A DNA stretch of 38,898 bases from Frankiales bacterium (lineage in GTDB: Bacteria; Actinomycetota; Actinomycetes; Mycobacteriales; Geodermatophilaceae): assembly GCA_025465155.1 (NCBI GenBank), contig JAODNJ010000308.1:1-38898 (forward strand), in the 5' to 3' direction. The notes beneath the pieces are model-generated. The model saw nothing but the letters and a program-made list of their open reading frames with translations. It did not search any database and was not told the origin of the DNA. The number at the start of each line of letters is the position of its first letter. The stretch's first letter is position 1. Both the position numbers and the translations under genes were made by a program. Shown here in pieces: positions 30,465 through 36,048 of this stretch.

Positions 30465-31552
30465 GCCACCACGACGGCACGCAACTGCTCCGCGACGTCC
30501 TCCGGGTTGGTGTCCGTGATGAACGCGCCCATGCCGGACTCCGAGCCGGCCAGGTACTTCAGCTTCCCGGGCGCGCGTCGGATGGAGAACAGCTGCAGGT
30601 GCAGCCACCAGTCCTCCCGGCCGTCGTTCACCGGCGCCTGGTTCCAGGAGGCGATGTAGGGCATGGGGGTGTCGAAGCGGCGGGCGAAACGGCCGAGCAC
30701 GTCGAGATAGACCCGCACGAAGGCGTCGCGCTCCTCACCGGTCAGCGCGGGGATGTCGGGCACCCGGCGGTGCGGGAACAGCTGGACCTCGTACGGCCAT
30801 CGGGCGGCGGCCGGCACGAACGCCGTCCAGTGCCCGTTGGCGCACACCACCCGCGGTCCACTGCGCTCGCTCCCGACGACCTCGGCGAAGAGGTCTCCCC
30901 CGGAGGTCTCACGGTGCCGGCGCACGGTGCGCAGCACCGAGGCCGCGCGCGGTGGCACGTAGGGGTAGGCGTAGATCTGGCCGTGCGGGTGCGAGAGGGT
31001 GACGCCGATCTCCTCGCCGTGGTTCTCGAACGGGAAGACGTACTCGACCCCGTCGATGGCCGAGAGCTCGGCGGTCCGGTCGGCCCAGACGTCGACCACC
31101 AGGCGCGCCCGGTCGTGGCCGAGTTCGGCGAAGACGCGATCGTGCTGGTCGGTGAAGCAGACGACCTCGCAGCGGCCGAACCCCGGACGCAGCCGTGCCA
31201 GGGGCGCACCCGGCGCCGTCGGCGGCACCTCGCGTTCGACCTCGGTGGCCAGCGACGGGAACCTGTTCTCGAAGACGACGACCTGGTAGGAGCTGTCCGG
31301 GATCTCGGTCGGGCGGCCCGGCCGCGACGGGTCCAGCGGGCACTCGTCGGGCGGCGGGAGGAAGGTCCGGCTCTGCCGGTGCGAGGCGATGGCGACCCAC
31401 TCGCCGAGCAGGGCGTCGTAGCGCAACTGGGAGTGCGTGCTGACCGGCGGGAGGTCGCGGGTGTCCTGCGCGTCGTGCGCCCGCGGGCTGCGGTCGTCGT
31501 CGAAATAGAGGATCTCTCGGCCGTCGGCCAGCCGCCGACTCGTCCGGATCAC
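30461..31552 (-). CDS. galT: Galactose-1-phosphate uridylyltransferase
   Basis: GalT exchanges UMP between UDP-glucose and galactose 1-phosphate. The 363-residue protein carries EWVAIASHRQSRTFLPP, VVVFENRFPSLATE, GRCEVVCFTDQHD and the active-site LSHPHGQIYAYPY, where H190 is the uridylylated nucleophile and H188 a metal ligand. At the place of the usual CxxC zinc pair it has C71-P-L-D74, so one Cys is replaced by Asp. The GTG at 31552 has GGAGGGG about 9 bases upstream. It is the first gene of the operon; its upstream 165 bases hold a possible promoter. Confidence 0.97.
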   Translation of the reverse strand: MIRTSRRLADGREILYFDDDRSPRAHDAQDTRDLPPVSTHSQLRYDALLGEWVAIASHRQSRTFLPPPDECPLDPSRPGRPTEIPDSSYQVVVFENRFPSLATEVEREVPPTAPGAPLARLRPGFGRCEVVCFTDQHDRVFAELGHDRARLVVDVWADRTAELSAIDGVEYVFPFENHGEEIGVTLSHPHGQIYAYPYVPPRAASVLRTVRRHRETSGGDLFAEVVGSERSGPRVVCANGHWTAFVPAAARWPYEVQLFPHRRVPDIPALTGEERDAFVRVYLDVLGRFARRFDTPMPYIASWNQAPVNDGREDWWLHLQLFSIRRAPGKLKYLAGSESGMGAFITDTNPEDVAEQLRAVVVA

Positions 31553-31616
31553 CGTGTTCCGCCCCTCCGACGCCCCCTCCGCCCCGGCCGCCCGGCGTCA
31601 GAGAGCGACGCGGTCG

Positions 31617-31622
31617 ACGCTA
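31617..31622 (-). promoter_or_regulatory. Candidate -10 box of the galactose operon
   Basis: Minus-strand TAGCGT, the best TANNNT match between galT and the tRNA terminator, leaving a leader of about 60 bases with the galT ribosome site. No -35 or sugar-regulator operator is obvious nearby. Inference. Confidence 0.25.
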
Positions 31623-31717
31623 GCTCCGGTCGCGATCTTGGGCCACTCGGAGGCCGGCCGCCGCCGGGGGCACCCGGACGGGGACACGGGGGTGCCGGCC
31701 GGAGGCCGTGGAACGGC

Positions 31718-31750
31718 GAGAGCCCCCGACCGGATCGGTCGGGGGCTCTC
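31718..31750 (-). terminator. Strong hairpin terminator after tRNA-Glu
   Basis: A perfect 15-base inverted repeat, GAGAGCCCCCGACCG and CGGTCGGGGGCTCTC, around a GAT centre, starting 9 bases after the 3' end of tRNA-Glu. No T run follows on the minus strand, which is common in actinobacterial terminators. It separates the gltX-tRNA unit from the galactose operon. Confidence 0.8.
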
Positions 31751-31758
31751 GCACGGTG

Positions 31759-31831
31759 TAGCCCCGAAGGGATTCGAACCCTCGCTACCGCCGTGAGAGG
31801 GCGGCGTCCTGGGCCGCTAGACGACGGGGCC
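31759..31831 (-). tRNA. tRNA-Glu (CTC anticodon)
   Basis: A 73-base tRNA starting GGCCCCGTCGTCTAGC and ending CGGGGCTA. The cloverleaf folds fully: 7-base acceptor stem with a G-U first pair as usual for tRNA-Glu, D arm, anticodon stem CCGCC/GGCGG with loop CTCTCAC (anticodon CTC, complementary to 31795-31797), and T arm GAGGG-TTCGAAT-CCCTT. CCA is not encoded. It follows tRNA-Gln and gltX. Confidence 0.97.
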
Positions 31832-31894
31832 GTGCCGTGCTGCCGGGCCGGAACCCGGCGGCGGGTGCTGCAGTGAGGAGGTGACGCTTCCTCG

Positions 31895-31966
31895 CTGGGG
31901 TACCAGGACTCGAACCTAGACTAACGGAACCAGAAACCGTCGGGCTGCCAATTACCCCATACCCCA
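31895..31966 (-). tRNA. tRNA-Gln (CTG anticodon)
   Basis: A 72-base tRNA with a perfect 7-base acceptor stem (TGGGGTA/TACCCCA) and discriminator G, the D-arm start TGGGGTAATTGGCAG, anticodon CTG in GGTTTCTGGTTCC, and T loop GGTTCGAGTCC. CCA is not encoded. Its first 15 bases are also the last four codons and stop of the CPBP protease gene. Many actinobacteria load this tRNA through GltX and the GatCAB amidotransferase. Confidence 0.96.
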
Positions 31967-33061
31967 AGGGCTGTTCGGCGCCTCGCGGCGCCAGGGAGAC
32001 ACGATACCTGACGCATCCGGGTGGGATGGCACGACCCCCGGGCGCAGGTCCACGGCGGCAGTCGTGAGATCCGGCCGCACCCGGCGACGGAGCACCGCGA
32101 CCAGTGCGACGTAGCCGGCCAGCGCAAGCACCGTCAGCACGACATCGAGCGCCCCGGCTCCCGGCACGCCGTCGGTGGTCGCGCTCTCCCCCAGTGCCCC
32201 GGCCAGGACGAACACCAGCACGTTGTTGACCGTGTGCAGGGCGATCGCCGCCTCGAGGCCGCCGGTCAGGCGGACGACGGCGGAGGCGGCCAGACCCACT
32301 GCGAAGCGGTCCAGGAAGGCGGCCCGGTCCGGAGGCGCGTGCGCGAGCGAGAACAGGATCGCGCTGAGCAGCCCCGCGACGACGGCGCCGATTCGTTCGG
32401 CGCGGAACCAGCCGGCGATCGCCTGGCTCAGGTAACCGCGGAAGACGTACTCCTCGGCCGCCGACTGGAGCGGGGTGGTGAGAAGCACCACGACGAGCAG
32501 CCGGCCGAACTCCGGGACCGGCCCGGTGAACGGCGCACCGAGACCGACCCCGAGCAGGATCGAGAGTGCGATCCCGGGGCCGAGCGTGGCCAGGGCCAGC
32601 ACCGTCCAGGGCAGGAAGAGCCGCCAGCGCAGCCGCCCGCGTACCGAGGACGACCAGCCGATCCGCATCTGGTGCACCGCCGCCCAGACCAGCCATACGA
32701 CCGGGATGGCGACCATGAGCGAGATGTTGGTGACCAGCAGGACCCGCGGGTCGGTGAGGTCCCCGTTCGCCAGCCCGGCCAGGATCCCGCCGCCGGTGCG
32801 CAGGAGCGCGACCACGGCCAGGGCCACGGCCGCGATGGCGCTGACGGCGTAGACGCCGGCGAGGAGCAGCAGGCCCAGGAGCGGCTTCCACCACGCCCAG
32901 GTCCGGGATCTCATGACGTGCAGGAACGGTCGGGGGACGTCGTGCGGTGGCGGCGTGGGCAGCTTCGCCCACGGCGGCGGGTACCCCCGCGGCGGGGGTG
33001 GCGGCCACTGCTGGGGCGGCCACTCGTGGTACGGCCGGTCCTCGGGACCGGGTGTGGTCAT
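31952..33061 (-). CDS. CPBP family intramembrane glutamic endopeptidase
   Basis: A 369-residue membrane protein of the CPBP (CAAX protease and bacteriocin-processing) family. A Pro-rich, Trp/His-containing cytoplasmic start (about residues 1-45) precedes about eight membrane helices. The catalytic motifs are all present: EEYVFR (E203, E204, R208), FSLAH (F237, H241) and HTVNN (H276, N280). Substrate unknown. The ATG at 33061 overlaps the gltX stop as ATGA. The stop TAA lies inside tRNA-Gln, so the last four codons (TGG GGT ATG GGG) are tRNA sequence. The much longer frame upstream is an out-of-phase reading through gltX. Confidence 0.93.
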
Positions 33062-34572
33062 CCTCCGGCGGAGCCGGGGACCAGCCGCCGTGCCGCCGCC
33101 AGCCGGGCGAGCGTGCGCTCGCGCCCGAGCTGCTCCATCGACTCGTACAGCGGCGGTGAGACGGTCCGGCCGCTGATGGCGACACGGACGGGTCCGAACG
33201 CCTGCCGCGGCTTGCGGCCCAGCCCGTCGACGAGCGACTCCTTGAGCGCGGTCTCGATCGCGGGCGCCGTCCACTCGGGGAGGTCGGTGAGCGCGGCGGA
33301 GGCGGCATCGAGCACCTCGGCGGCGTCGGGTCCGGACAGCTGCTTCTCGGCGGCCGCCGGGTCGATCTCCACCTCGTCGGTGAACAGGAAGCCGACCAGC
33401 CCGACCGCGTCGGACAAGACGATCATCCGCTCCTGGGCCAGCGGCGCGATCGCCTCGAGGACCCGCCGCTGCTCGTCCGTCGGCGGGTCGGAGACAAGGC
33501 CCTCCCGGGCGAGGAAGGGCACCACGCGCTCGACGAAGTCCTCCACCGGCAGGGCCCGCAGGTGCGTCGCGTTGATCGCCTCGGCCTTCTTGACGTCGAA
33601 GCGGGCCGGGTTGGGGCTCACCCTGCGCACGTCGAAGGCGGCCACCATCTCCTCCGGCGAGAAGATGTCGCGGTCCTCGGCGATCGACCACCCGAGCAGG
33701 GCGAGGTAGTTCACCATGCCCTCGGGCAGGAAGCCACGCTCGCGGTAGACGTCGAAGTTCGACTGCGGATCGCGCTTGGACAGCTTTTTGTTGCCCTCGC
33801 CCATGACCAGCGGCAGGTGCCCGAAACGGGGCCTGCCCGGCGCGACGCCGATGTCGGTGAGGGCGTCGTAGAGGGCCAGCTGCCGCGGGGTGGAAGGCAG
33901 CAGGTCCTCCCCGCGGAGGACGTCCGTGATGCCCATCAGGGCGTCGTCCACCGGGTTGACGAAGGGGTACAGCGGCACGCCGTTGCCCCGGACCAGGACG
34001 AAGTCGGGCACCGAGCCGGCCGCGAAGCGCACCTCGCCCCGCACGAGGTCGTCCCAGGCCAGGTCGGTGTCGGGCATGCGCAGCCGCAGCACGGGAGCGC
34101 GGCCCTCGGCGCGGAAGGCCGCCTTCTGCTCCTCGGTGAGAAGGCGGTCGGCGTTGTCGTAGCCGAGCTTGGGGTCCTGCCCGGCCGCGAGCCGCCGTGC
34201 CGTGACCTCCTCCGGGGTGGAGAAGGACTCGTATGCGTGACCGGCCTCGAGCAGCCGGGCGGCGACGTCGCGGTAGATCTCGTGGCGCTCCGACTGCCGG
34301 TACGGCCCGTGCGGGCCGCCGACCTCCGGACCCTCGTCCCAGTCGAGCCCGAGCCAGCGCAGGCAGTCGAGCAGATGGCGGTAGGACTCCTCGGAGTCGC
34401 GGGCCGCGTCGGTGTCCTCGATCCGGAAGACGAACCTCCCGCCGGTGTGCCGCGCGTGCGCCCAGTTGAACAGCGCCGCACGCATGACGCCGACGTGCAC
34501 CAGTCCGGTCGGGGAGGGACAGAACCTGGTGGTGACTCCCCCCGACGGGGTGGCCGCGGGATCGGCCGTCAC
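33058..34572 (-). CDS. gltX: Glutamyl-tRNA synthetase
   Basis: Class I synthetase charging tRNA-Glu, probably also tRNA-Gln where GatCAB corrects it. The 504-residue protein opens [20 protein letters not shown] (HIGH motif as HVG), has [57 protein letters not shown] and the KMSKS loop as [10 protein letters not shown], then the anticodon-binding C-terminal part ending near [13 protein letters not shown]. The GTG at 34572 overlaps the FAH gene stop as GTGA. It is followed by the CPBP gene and, strikingly, by tRNA-Gln and tRNA-Glu, its own substrates. Confidence 0.97.
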
Positions 34573-35381
34573 CGAGGACCCCCCGCGGTCGACACGGCGT
34601 CGGCCTCCGTGACGACGTTGGACAGCGCACCCAGCGCCTCGATCGTGCACTCGACCCGCTGCCCGGGCCGGATGGGACCGACGCCGGACGGTGTGCCGGT
34701 GAGCACCACGTCGCCCGGGAGCAGCGTCATGATCTGGGAGATGTAGGAGATGAGCGTGGGGATGCCGAACAGCAGCTGGCTGGTCCGGCCGGACTGGCGC
34801 GGCTCGCCGTCCACGGCGCAGGAGATCTCCAGGTCGGCGGGGTCCTTGCCGAGCGCGGCCAGGTCGGTCTCGATCCACGGGCCCAGCGGGCAGAAGGAGT
34901 CGAATCCCTTCGCCCGCGTCCACTGCCCGTCGCTCTTCTGCATGTCGCGCTCGGTGACGTCGTTGCCGATCGTGTAGCCGAAAACGCTGCCCGGGGCCTG
35001 CTCGGGAGTGACATTGCGGGCACCGCGGGCGCCGATGACGACGGCGAGTTCCACCTCGTGATGGACGTTGGTGCTGCCGTGTGGGATCCGGATGGCATCC
35101 CCGGGGCCGATGACGGACGTCGACGGCTTGAGGAACAGCAGTGGCTGCGTGGGTGCGTCGCCGGTGTTCATCTCCTGGACGTGCTCGGCGTAGTTCTTGC
35201 CGACGCCCACCACCTTGCTCGGCAGGATCGGCGACAGGAGACGGACATCCGCGCGGGCGTAGCGGGCGCCGGTGAAAGAGATCTGGCCGAACGGGTGGCC
35301 GTCGATCTGGGCGACCTGACCGTCCCCGTCGAGGACGCCGAAGGACATGCCCTGGGGTGAGGCGAAACGAACGATGCGCAC
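34569..35381 (-). CDS. Fumarylacetoacetate hydrolase (FAH) family protein
   Basis: A 270-residue FAH-family enzyme; members hydrolyse or decarboxylate acylpyruvates and related 2-oxo acids. The fold markers are [52 protein letters not shown] with the metal-binding Glu residues, [14 protein letters not shown], and [20 protein letters not shown]. The substrate is not predictable; acylpyruvase activity is a possibility. Its place directly before gltX is conserved in mycobacteria (Rv2993c). The GTG at 35381 has no ribosome site, but TAGCCT lies 6 bases upstream, so a leaderless transcript covering FAH-gltX-CPBP-tRNAs is likely. Confidence 0.94.
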
Positions 35382-35387
35382 GCATCG

Positions 35388-35393
35388 AGGCTA
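35388..35393 (-). promoter_or_regulatory. Candidate -10 box of FAH-gltX, leaderless spacing
   Basis: Minus-strand TAGCCT with 6 bases to the GTG at 35381. It faces the TAGCGT at 35431 of the divergent gene, so two mirrored leaderless promoters would lie in the 61-base intergenic region. Inference. Confidence 0.45.
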
Positions 35394-35430
35394 GTCGGCG
35401 TCGCGCGGGGGCCCGCCCCGCCGGTGTCAC

Positions 35431-35436
35431 TAGCGT
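35431..35436 (+). promoter_or_regulatory. Candidate -10 box of the TMEM175-type gene, leaderless spacing
   Basis: TAGCGT with 6 bases (CTGCGC) to the ATG at 35443, no ribosome site. Start of transcription would fall on the A of ATG. Inference. Confidence 0.45.
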
Positions 35437-35442
35437 CTGCGC

Positions 35443-36048
35443 ATGTCGACCGGCCGGATGGAAGCCTTCAGCGACGGCGTCATCGCCATCCTGATCACCG
35501 TCATGGTGCTCGGGCTCCCGGTCCCCCACGGCACGACGTGGGGGGCGTTACGGGACTCGGTTCCCGTGCTGCTCAGCTACGTGCTGAGCTTCGTCTACCT
35601 GGGGATCTACTGGAGCAACCACCACCACATGCTCCAGGCGACCGACCGGGTCAGTGGGCTGATGCTGTGGGCCAACCTGCATCTGCTGTTCTGGCTGTCC
35701 CTGGTCCCGTTCACCACCGAGTGGCTCGGCGAGAACCACTTCGCCGCCACGCCCGCGGCCGCCTACGGCATCGTCCTGCTCGCCGCGGCGATGGCGTACT
35801 TCGCACTCGAGCGGGTGATCATCCGGGACCAGGGAGGGGAGTCCCTGGTGGCCGCGGCCGTCGGGCGCGACCGGAAGGGCAAGGTGTCCCCGCTGCTGTA
35901 CGCCCTGGGTATCGGCCTGTCCTTCGTCAGCCAGTGGCTCGCGATGGCCCTCTTCGCCGGCGTGGCCCTGATGTGGCTGGTTCCCGACCGCCGGATGGAG
36001 CGGACCATCGCCGGGCGGGTGCAGACCACCGGTGAGCCCAGCCCGTGA
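35443..36048 (+). CDS. TMEM175 family (DUF1211) potassium channel-like protein
   Basis: A 201-residue, six-helix membrane protein of the TMEM175 family, bacterial relatives of the lysosomal potassium channel that work as tetramers. The signature [12 protein letters not shown] (RxxxFSD at residues 5-11) begins the pore-lining first helix, followed by [13 protein letters not shown], and [18 protein letters not shown] in the third helix is another family mark. After the second pair of helices there is an IRDQGGES loop, then a final pair ([20 protein letters not shown]). Start ATG 35443 is supported by the RMEAFSD position. It is divergent from the FAH-gltX unit. Confidence 0.92.

Follow-up and report, generated by a model that had tools for sequence, protein, structure and literature searches.

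The stop codon of a Geodermatophilus CPBP protease gene lies inside tRNA-Gln, probably through neutral loss of an upstream stop

How does a protein-coding gene come to end inside a tRNA gene, and what does such an ending do to the two gene products? The question is raised by the window, as we call the whole stretch of 38,898 nucleotides analysed here. In it the frame of a membrane protease gene runs on the minus strand from an ATG at 33061 through 369 codons to a TAA at 31952-31954. The frame ends AGC CCT TGG GGT ATG GGG TAA, and its last five codons (31966-31952) are at the same time nucleotides 1-15 of tRNA-Gln on the same strand, with tRNA nucleotide 1 sitting on a codon boundary of the protease frame. 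The preliminary description had placed the CPBP stop codon inside tRNA-Gln with 15 shared bases, and this was confirmed base for base. No published description of a protease/tRNA-Gln overlap was found among titles and abstract openings, in which subscription journals are thinly covered. The features of the locus are as follows.

33058..34572, minus strand: gene read as gltX, 504 aa, upstream of the protease gene (GTG start picked by eye; aligned with relatives)
31952..33061, minus strand: CPBP/Rce1-like membrane protease gene, 369 aa (translation; PF02517; TAA at 31952-31954)
32034..32039, minus strand: GGGGGT block upstream of the −10 box (by eye, uncounted)
32001-32011, minus strand: conserved 11-mer TCAGGTATCGT, which includes the TATCGT box
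32001..32006, minus strand: promoter-like −10 box TATCGT, inside the protease frame and before tRNA-Gln (motif conservation)
31976..31993, minus strand: leader hairpin with a GNRA-type tetraloop, GCGA (fold and longest-stem search)
31952..31966, minus strand: 15-base overlap TGG GGT ATG GGG TAA, its stop being tRNA-Gln nucleotides 13-15
31894..31966, minus strand: tRNA-Gln(CTG) (ARAGORN; Rfam RF00005 at 31895-31966, 53 bits)
31758..31831, minus strand: tRNA-Glu(CTC), downstream of tRNA-Gln (ARAGORN)
31716..31752, minus strand: strong hairpin 3′ of tRNA-Glu, a possible transcript end with no T run after it (inverted repeat and fold)

The protease translation matches the PF02517 profile over residues 188-282 (E 4.5e-15, 56.2 bits against a cut-off of 22.4) and contains an EEYVFRGY stretch, which presumably has catalytic meaning, the activity being predicted. 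Its ATG overlaps the stop codon of the preceding gene (ATGA), which we take to be gltX, encoding glutamyl-tRNA synthetase. The tRNA-Gln gene scores as a tRNA in both ARAGORN and Rfam, with a cloverleaf and a CTG anticodon, and the two tRNAs are the only Rfam matches in the window. The same 73-base tRNA-Gln gene is found in 74 of the 88 family genomes without the overlap. The hairpin after tRNA-Glu is a strong one (31705-31760 folds at −42.8 kcal/mol, z −7.53). As a side observation, two copies of tRNA-Glu lie 3′ of tRNA-Gln in 23 of 26 genus loci, and a single copy in the window and in loci L022 and L026.

We compared the C-termini of orthologous proteases, with the frames anchored by tblastn on the gene body. 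A match was present in 107 of 112 genomes of the family, and 104 of these were scored; three were not, because the match was incomplete and at a contig end (G069), the stretch contained no stop (G096) or it ended short of the tRNA (G093). The overlap is seen in 16 of the 104, all of one genus; the other 88 frames end 10-144 nt short of the tRNA. In that genus, Geodermatophilus, 16 of 26 genomes, the window's included, stop at tRNA-Gln nucleotide 15 and the remaining ten stop 61 or 62 nt before tRNA-Gln. An overlap peculiar to this assembly was thus ruled out by 15 further genus genomes with the same end.

Outside the family, 33 loci fell among the best 80 of 394, 27 of them with a downstream tRNA-Gln and none with an overlap. 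Class-wide scans gave 35 genomes outside the family in which tRNA-Gln adjoins the gene; seven of these overlap, all in a second family (f10), and 28 do not. The first of these scans covered 49 of the 54 matching genomes (window's own excluded, one match each; G127, G148, G150, G232 and G300 left out), and the second used 30 loci among the matches listed. The f10 overlap occurs in 7 of 8 genomes examined and 6 of 7 genera (L200, L201, L205, L206, L208, L211 and L221), and f10 locus L216 stops 22 nt before the tRNA. The surroundings differ in f10, which has another leader and, by eye, TTGTCC and TATCCT boxes within the frame. Hence the overlap is clade-wide in the genus and present in a second family; the preliminary description had named uniqueness to this strain as something that would speak against its reading. 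Separately, the protease match at locus L185 (G057) is split into two pieces that lie in different frames, which may reflect a frameshift or a fault in the assembly.

A tree built from gltX and the protease body (56 rows, tail excluded) joined 15 of the 16 overlapping Geodermatophilus genomes in one clade (100/99), here clade A, and left the window's genome on a long, unplaced branch. A single origin for all 16 was not rejected (AU p 0.376). Over both families the stop loss probably arose more than once, a separate origin in f10 being the simpler reading because all scored relatives of Geodermatophilus within its own family stop upstream. The distance between the conserved DLR codons and the tRNA, counted by hand, differs by 13 nt between clade A and the non-overlapping members of the genus; this is not a multiple of three and agrees with an indel that took the frame past its former TGA. 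In the window this distance is 9 nt less than in clade A.

The first 16 bases of tRNA-Gln are identical in 104/104 scored family loci, overlapping or not. Given that the tRNA 5′ end is the same in both states, the UAA is older than the arrival of the protease gene there. By phase, one frame through the tRNA 5′ end has this UAA at nucleotides 13-15 and another has its first stop at nucleotides 44-46. When the 88 non-overlapping frames were read on past their stops, 12 stopped before the tRNA, 19 at nucleotides 13-15, 28 at nucleotides 44-46, 25 at other positions within the tRNA or past it, and four beyond the locus stretch. With so few stops before the tRNA (12/88), a lost stop usually ends the frame in or after it, and an end at nucleotides 13-15 is one of the expected outcomes once a stop has been lost. 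Every overlap seen in the two families ends at nucleotides 13-15, and none at nucleotides 44-46 or beyond, though these were equally open. By our own estimate the chance of this with two or three origins is roughly 0.04-0.11, which hints that longer overlaps are disfavoured, two or three origins being too few to tell.

The protease tail also covers a conserved promoter-like motif. Of 104 family loci, 100 (16/16 overlapping and 84/88 not) carry TC[AG]GGTANNNT in the last 70 nt ahead of the tRNA, with 30-48 nt between the TA of the motif and the tRNA, and the remaining four, all non-overlapping, retain GGTANNNT; mononucleotide shuffles gave it in 5 of 10,400. The motif holds a −10 box of the TAnnnT type. 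In Propionibacterium acnes, according to the excerpted text of PMC3848588, the most frequent −10 variant is TAnnnT; the promoters studied there include those of tRNA genes, and the majority of tRNA genes have a transcript of their own. The window is like the P. acnes tRNA genes of that excerpt in its TAnnnT variant, and their −35 consensus GnTTnG resembles a GTTTTG seen by eye in several Nocardioidaceae loci. Unlike what the excerpt describes for P. acnes, the box here is also protein-coding and comes without an evident GnTTnG in Geodermatophilaceae. Inspection of the Geodermatophilaceae loci by eye gave no evident −35 box, and a simple sigma-70 consensus scan of 31500-35600 found no promoter. 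By eye, Geodermatophilaceae loci repeatedly show a GGGGGT block some 27 nt upstream of the −10 box, too far away for an ordinary −35 box.

Between the box and the tRNA, 83 of the 86 distinct leaders in the family showed a hairpin with a GNRA-type loop, whose stem varies by G-U pairs and by two-sided changes; the search picked for each leader the longest stem closing a loop of four bases, a method that favours stems, and in 5 of the 86 the stem is of only 3. When the 86 leaders were aligned automatically, RNAalifold did not recover the hairpin, and its stretch in the window reaches a z-score of only −1.18 against shuffles. A narrow hairpin pattern is matched by 10 of the 16 family loci with the overlap and 76 of the 88 without it, and box plus hairpin pattern together occur a single time in the window's genome, at this locus. 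A terminator scan found no T-run terminator in the interval from the protease body to tRNA-Gln; it requires a T run and missed the strong hairpin after tRNA-Glu too, so that other kinds of terminator are possible. The leader hairpin itself was rejected as a T-run terminator for the protease transcript, since 2 of 104 loci have TTTT within 70 nt ahead of the tRNA.

The simplest reading of these sequences is that tRNA-Gln has its own putative promoter, which in the overlapping species is now protein-coding. With this promoter active, tRNA-Gln would not have to be cut from the protease mRNA. The preliminary description had named a separate tRNA promoter in the gap between protease body and tRNA as speaking against a shared transcript; conservation in 100 of 104 loci points to such an element, whereas the sigma-70 scan gave no site for it.

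We then considered whether the tail is under selection as protein. Over the 29 tail codons before the tRNA in clade A (15 genomes), third positions did not vary more than first and second (entropy.46,.50 and.34 for the three codon positions, with 4468 of 5000 shuffles as high), while the last 42 codons of the body gave.36,.31 and.68, with 0 of 5000 shuffles as high. The pooled pN/pS was 1.24 for the tail against 0.53 for these body codons; taken in parts, the clade A tail gave 0.99 on the 5′ side of the −10 box and 2.67 on its 3′ side, and two body stretches 0.53 and 0.35. Hence protein-level selection on the tail was rejected for Geodermatophilus. The open tail frame was also rejected as a sign of selection, since other frames are about as open: the other two are open in 15/15 and 13/15 clade A rows, and in the non-coding stretch of clade B the frames are open in 10, 10 and 9 of 10. 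By a crude count, stop-creating changes make up 3.45% of single substitutions, and the at least 66 changes in the 15 tails might have been expected to make about 2.3 stops, of which none is seen.

The f10 tails gave a somewhat different picture. Codons −20 to −6 had entropies of.63,.37 and.77 (300 of 5000 shuffles as high) and a pN/pS of 0.69; the longer stretch from −31 to −6 gave 573 of 5000 and 0.81, and codons −44 to −32 gave 1721 of 5000 and 1.04. The f10 tail leans to a coding pattern, not significantly, and is not clearly neutral. For the protease body, median dN/dS in members of the genus was 0.362 with the overlap and 0.314 without it. These low values in both states imply that the protease gene is kept in both.

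Overlapping gene pairs can arise by loss of a stop codon, when the upstream frame extends 3′ into the downstream gene as far as the next in-frame stop. We think it likely that the protease gene took this path, as a tolerated accident in which a neutral stop loss left the frame with a borrowed stop, itself maintained by selection on the tRNA. The ancestral stop would have lain some 60-80 nt before tRNA-Gln, and small deletions just 3′ of the conserved D-L-R codons may have removed it or shifted it out of frame (the direction of change being part of the proposal). The frame would then have run stop-free through the promoter-like box and the hairpin leader into the tRNA, where the first in-phase stop is the UAA at nucleotides 13-15. 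Such a change could be tolerated if the extra C-terminal tail did little harm, if the tRNA were made from its own promoter, and if selection on the tRNA kept the borrowed stop from being lost. As in other stop-loss pairs, the protease frame extends 3′ into its neighbour until an in-frame stop; unlike them, the downstream gene here is a tRNA, whose stop is fixed by selection on an RNA.

Neutral stop loss is supported by the restriction of the overlap to one genus among the 104 scored family genomes, 88 of which stop upstream, by the conservation of box and leader in both states, and by a Geodermatophilus tail without protein-level selection on a body of similar dN/dS. It is weakened by the recurrence of the overlap in f10, always at nucleotides 13-15, by an f10 tail that is not clearly neutral and by the absence in clade A of the roughly 2.3 expected stops. 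The part of the proposal that gives the tRNA its own promoter is weakened by the sigma-70 scan and by the lack of an evident −35 box.

The preliminary description had proposed that protease mRNA and tRNA precursor are alternative fates of a single transcript, in which RNase P cleavage would remove the stop codon and leave a non-stop mRNA; this could limit protease synthesis or lead to tmRNA tagging of the product. Since no T-run terminator was found before tRNA-Gln, some protease mRNA probably does run through into the tRNAs, and read-through mRNA cut by RNase P would, in the overlapping species, lose its stop. The codon-boundary position of tRNA nucleotide 1, the presence of a tmRNA (143.8 bits) and the retention of the overlap in two lineages also favour such a switch. 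It is opposed by the conserved promoter-like box before the tRNA and inside the frame, by the occurrence of this box in 84 of the 88 non-overlapping relatives and a tRNA layout that the overlap leaves unchanged, by the lack of tail selection in Geodermatophilus and by a body constraint that is similar with and without the overlap. On balance we regard the switch as unlikely; it is possible for read-through transcripts only, and we found no sign of regulation in the sequences. Of the one-transcript reading, the overlap itself is real and conserved in the clade, but a general mutual exclusion of protease and tRNA fails if the box works. It seems improbable to much the same degree that in the two lineages the protease message normally reads into tRNA-Gln and receives its 3′ end from RNase P, with protease made from unprocessed RNA or through tmRNA rescue. 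If true, this would be a bacterial counterpart of mitochondrial tRNA punctuation, with protease output tied to tRNA maturation. Human mitochondrial mRNAs, in the excerpted text of PMC9674279, are directly flanked by same-strand tRNA, RNase P cleavage sets their 3′ end and the stop is completed by polyadenylation, all on a long polycistronic RNA. The likeness to that account is a same-strand tRNA after the mRNA and an affected stop codon. Unlike in human mitochondria as described there, the tRNA here itself contains the stop and has a promoter-like box ahead of it, and the processing of a joint transcript is putative.

Two further explanations concern the protease itself. If the added C-terminus had a function in the protease, such as that of an anchor or a degron, and protein-level selection kept its frame open, this would fit the 15/15 clade A tails of the same length without a stop and the f10 third codon positions, which vary most, if not significantly. 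The clade A pN/pS values on either side of the box, set against those of the body, speak against this, as does the fact that the conserved parts of the tail are the box and leader, conserved also where they are untranslated; we consider a working tail more doubtful than either RNase P reading. Least credible to us is a protease that is hardly ever translated to its end, such that the position of the stop is irrelevant. A search of the transcriptome and RNA-seq literature (titles and abstract openings) gave no expression data for Geodermatophilus, which leaves room for it, but the median dN/dS of the body, 0.36 with and 0.31 without the overlap, indicates purifying selection either way and argues for a working product.

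The locus offers a clean case of a bacterial gene that takes its stop codon from a structured RNA gene. Gene finders that forbid overlap between a CDS and a tRNA would truncate such protease genes. Furthermore, the overlap allows a direct test of whether RNase P makes non-stop messages, since some related species have it and others lack it while their tRNA and leader are alike.
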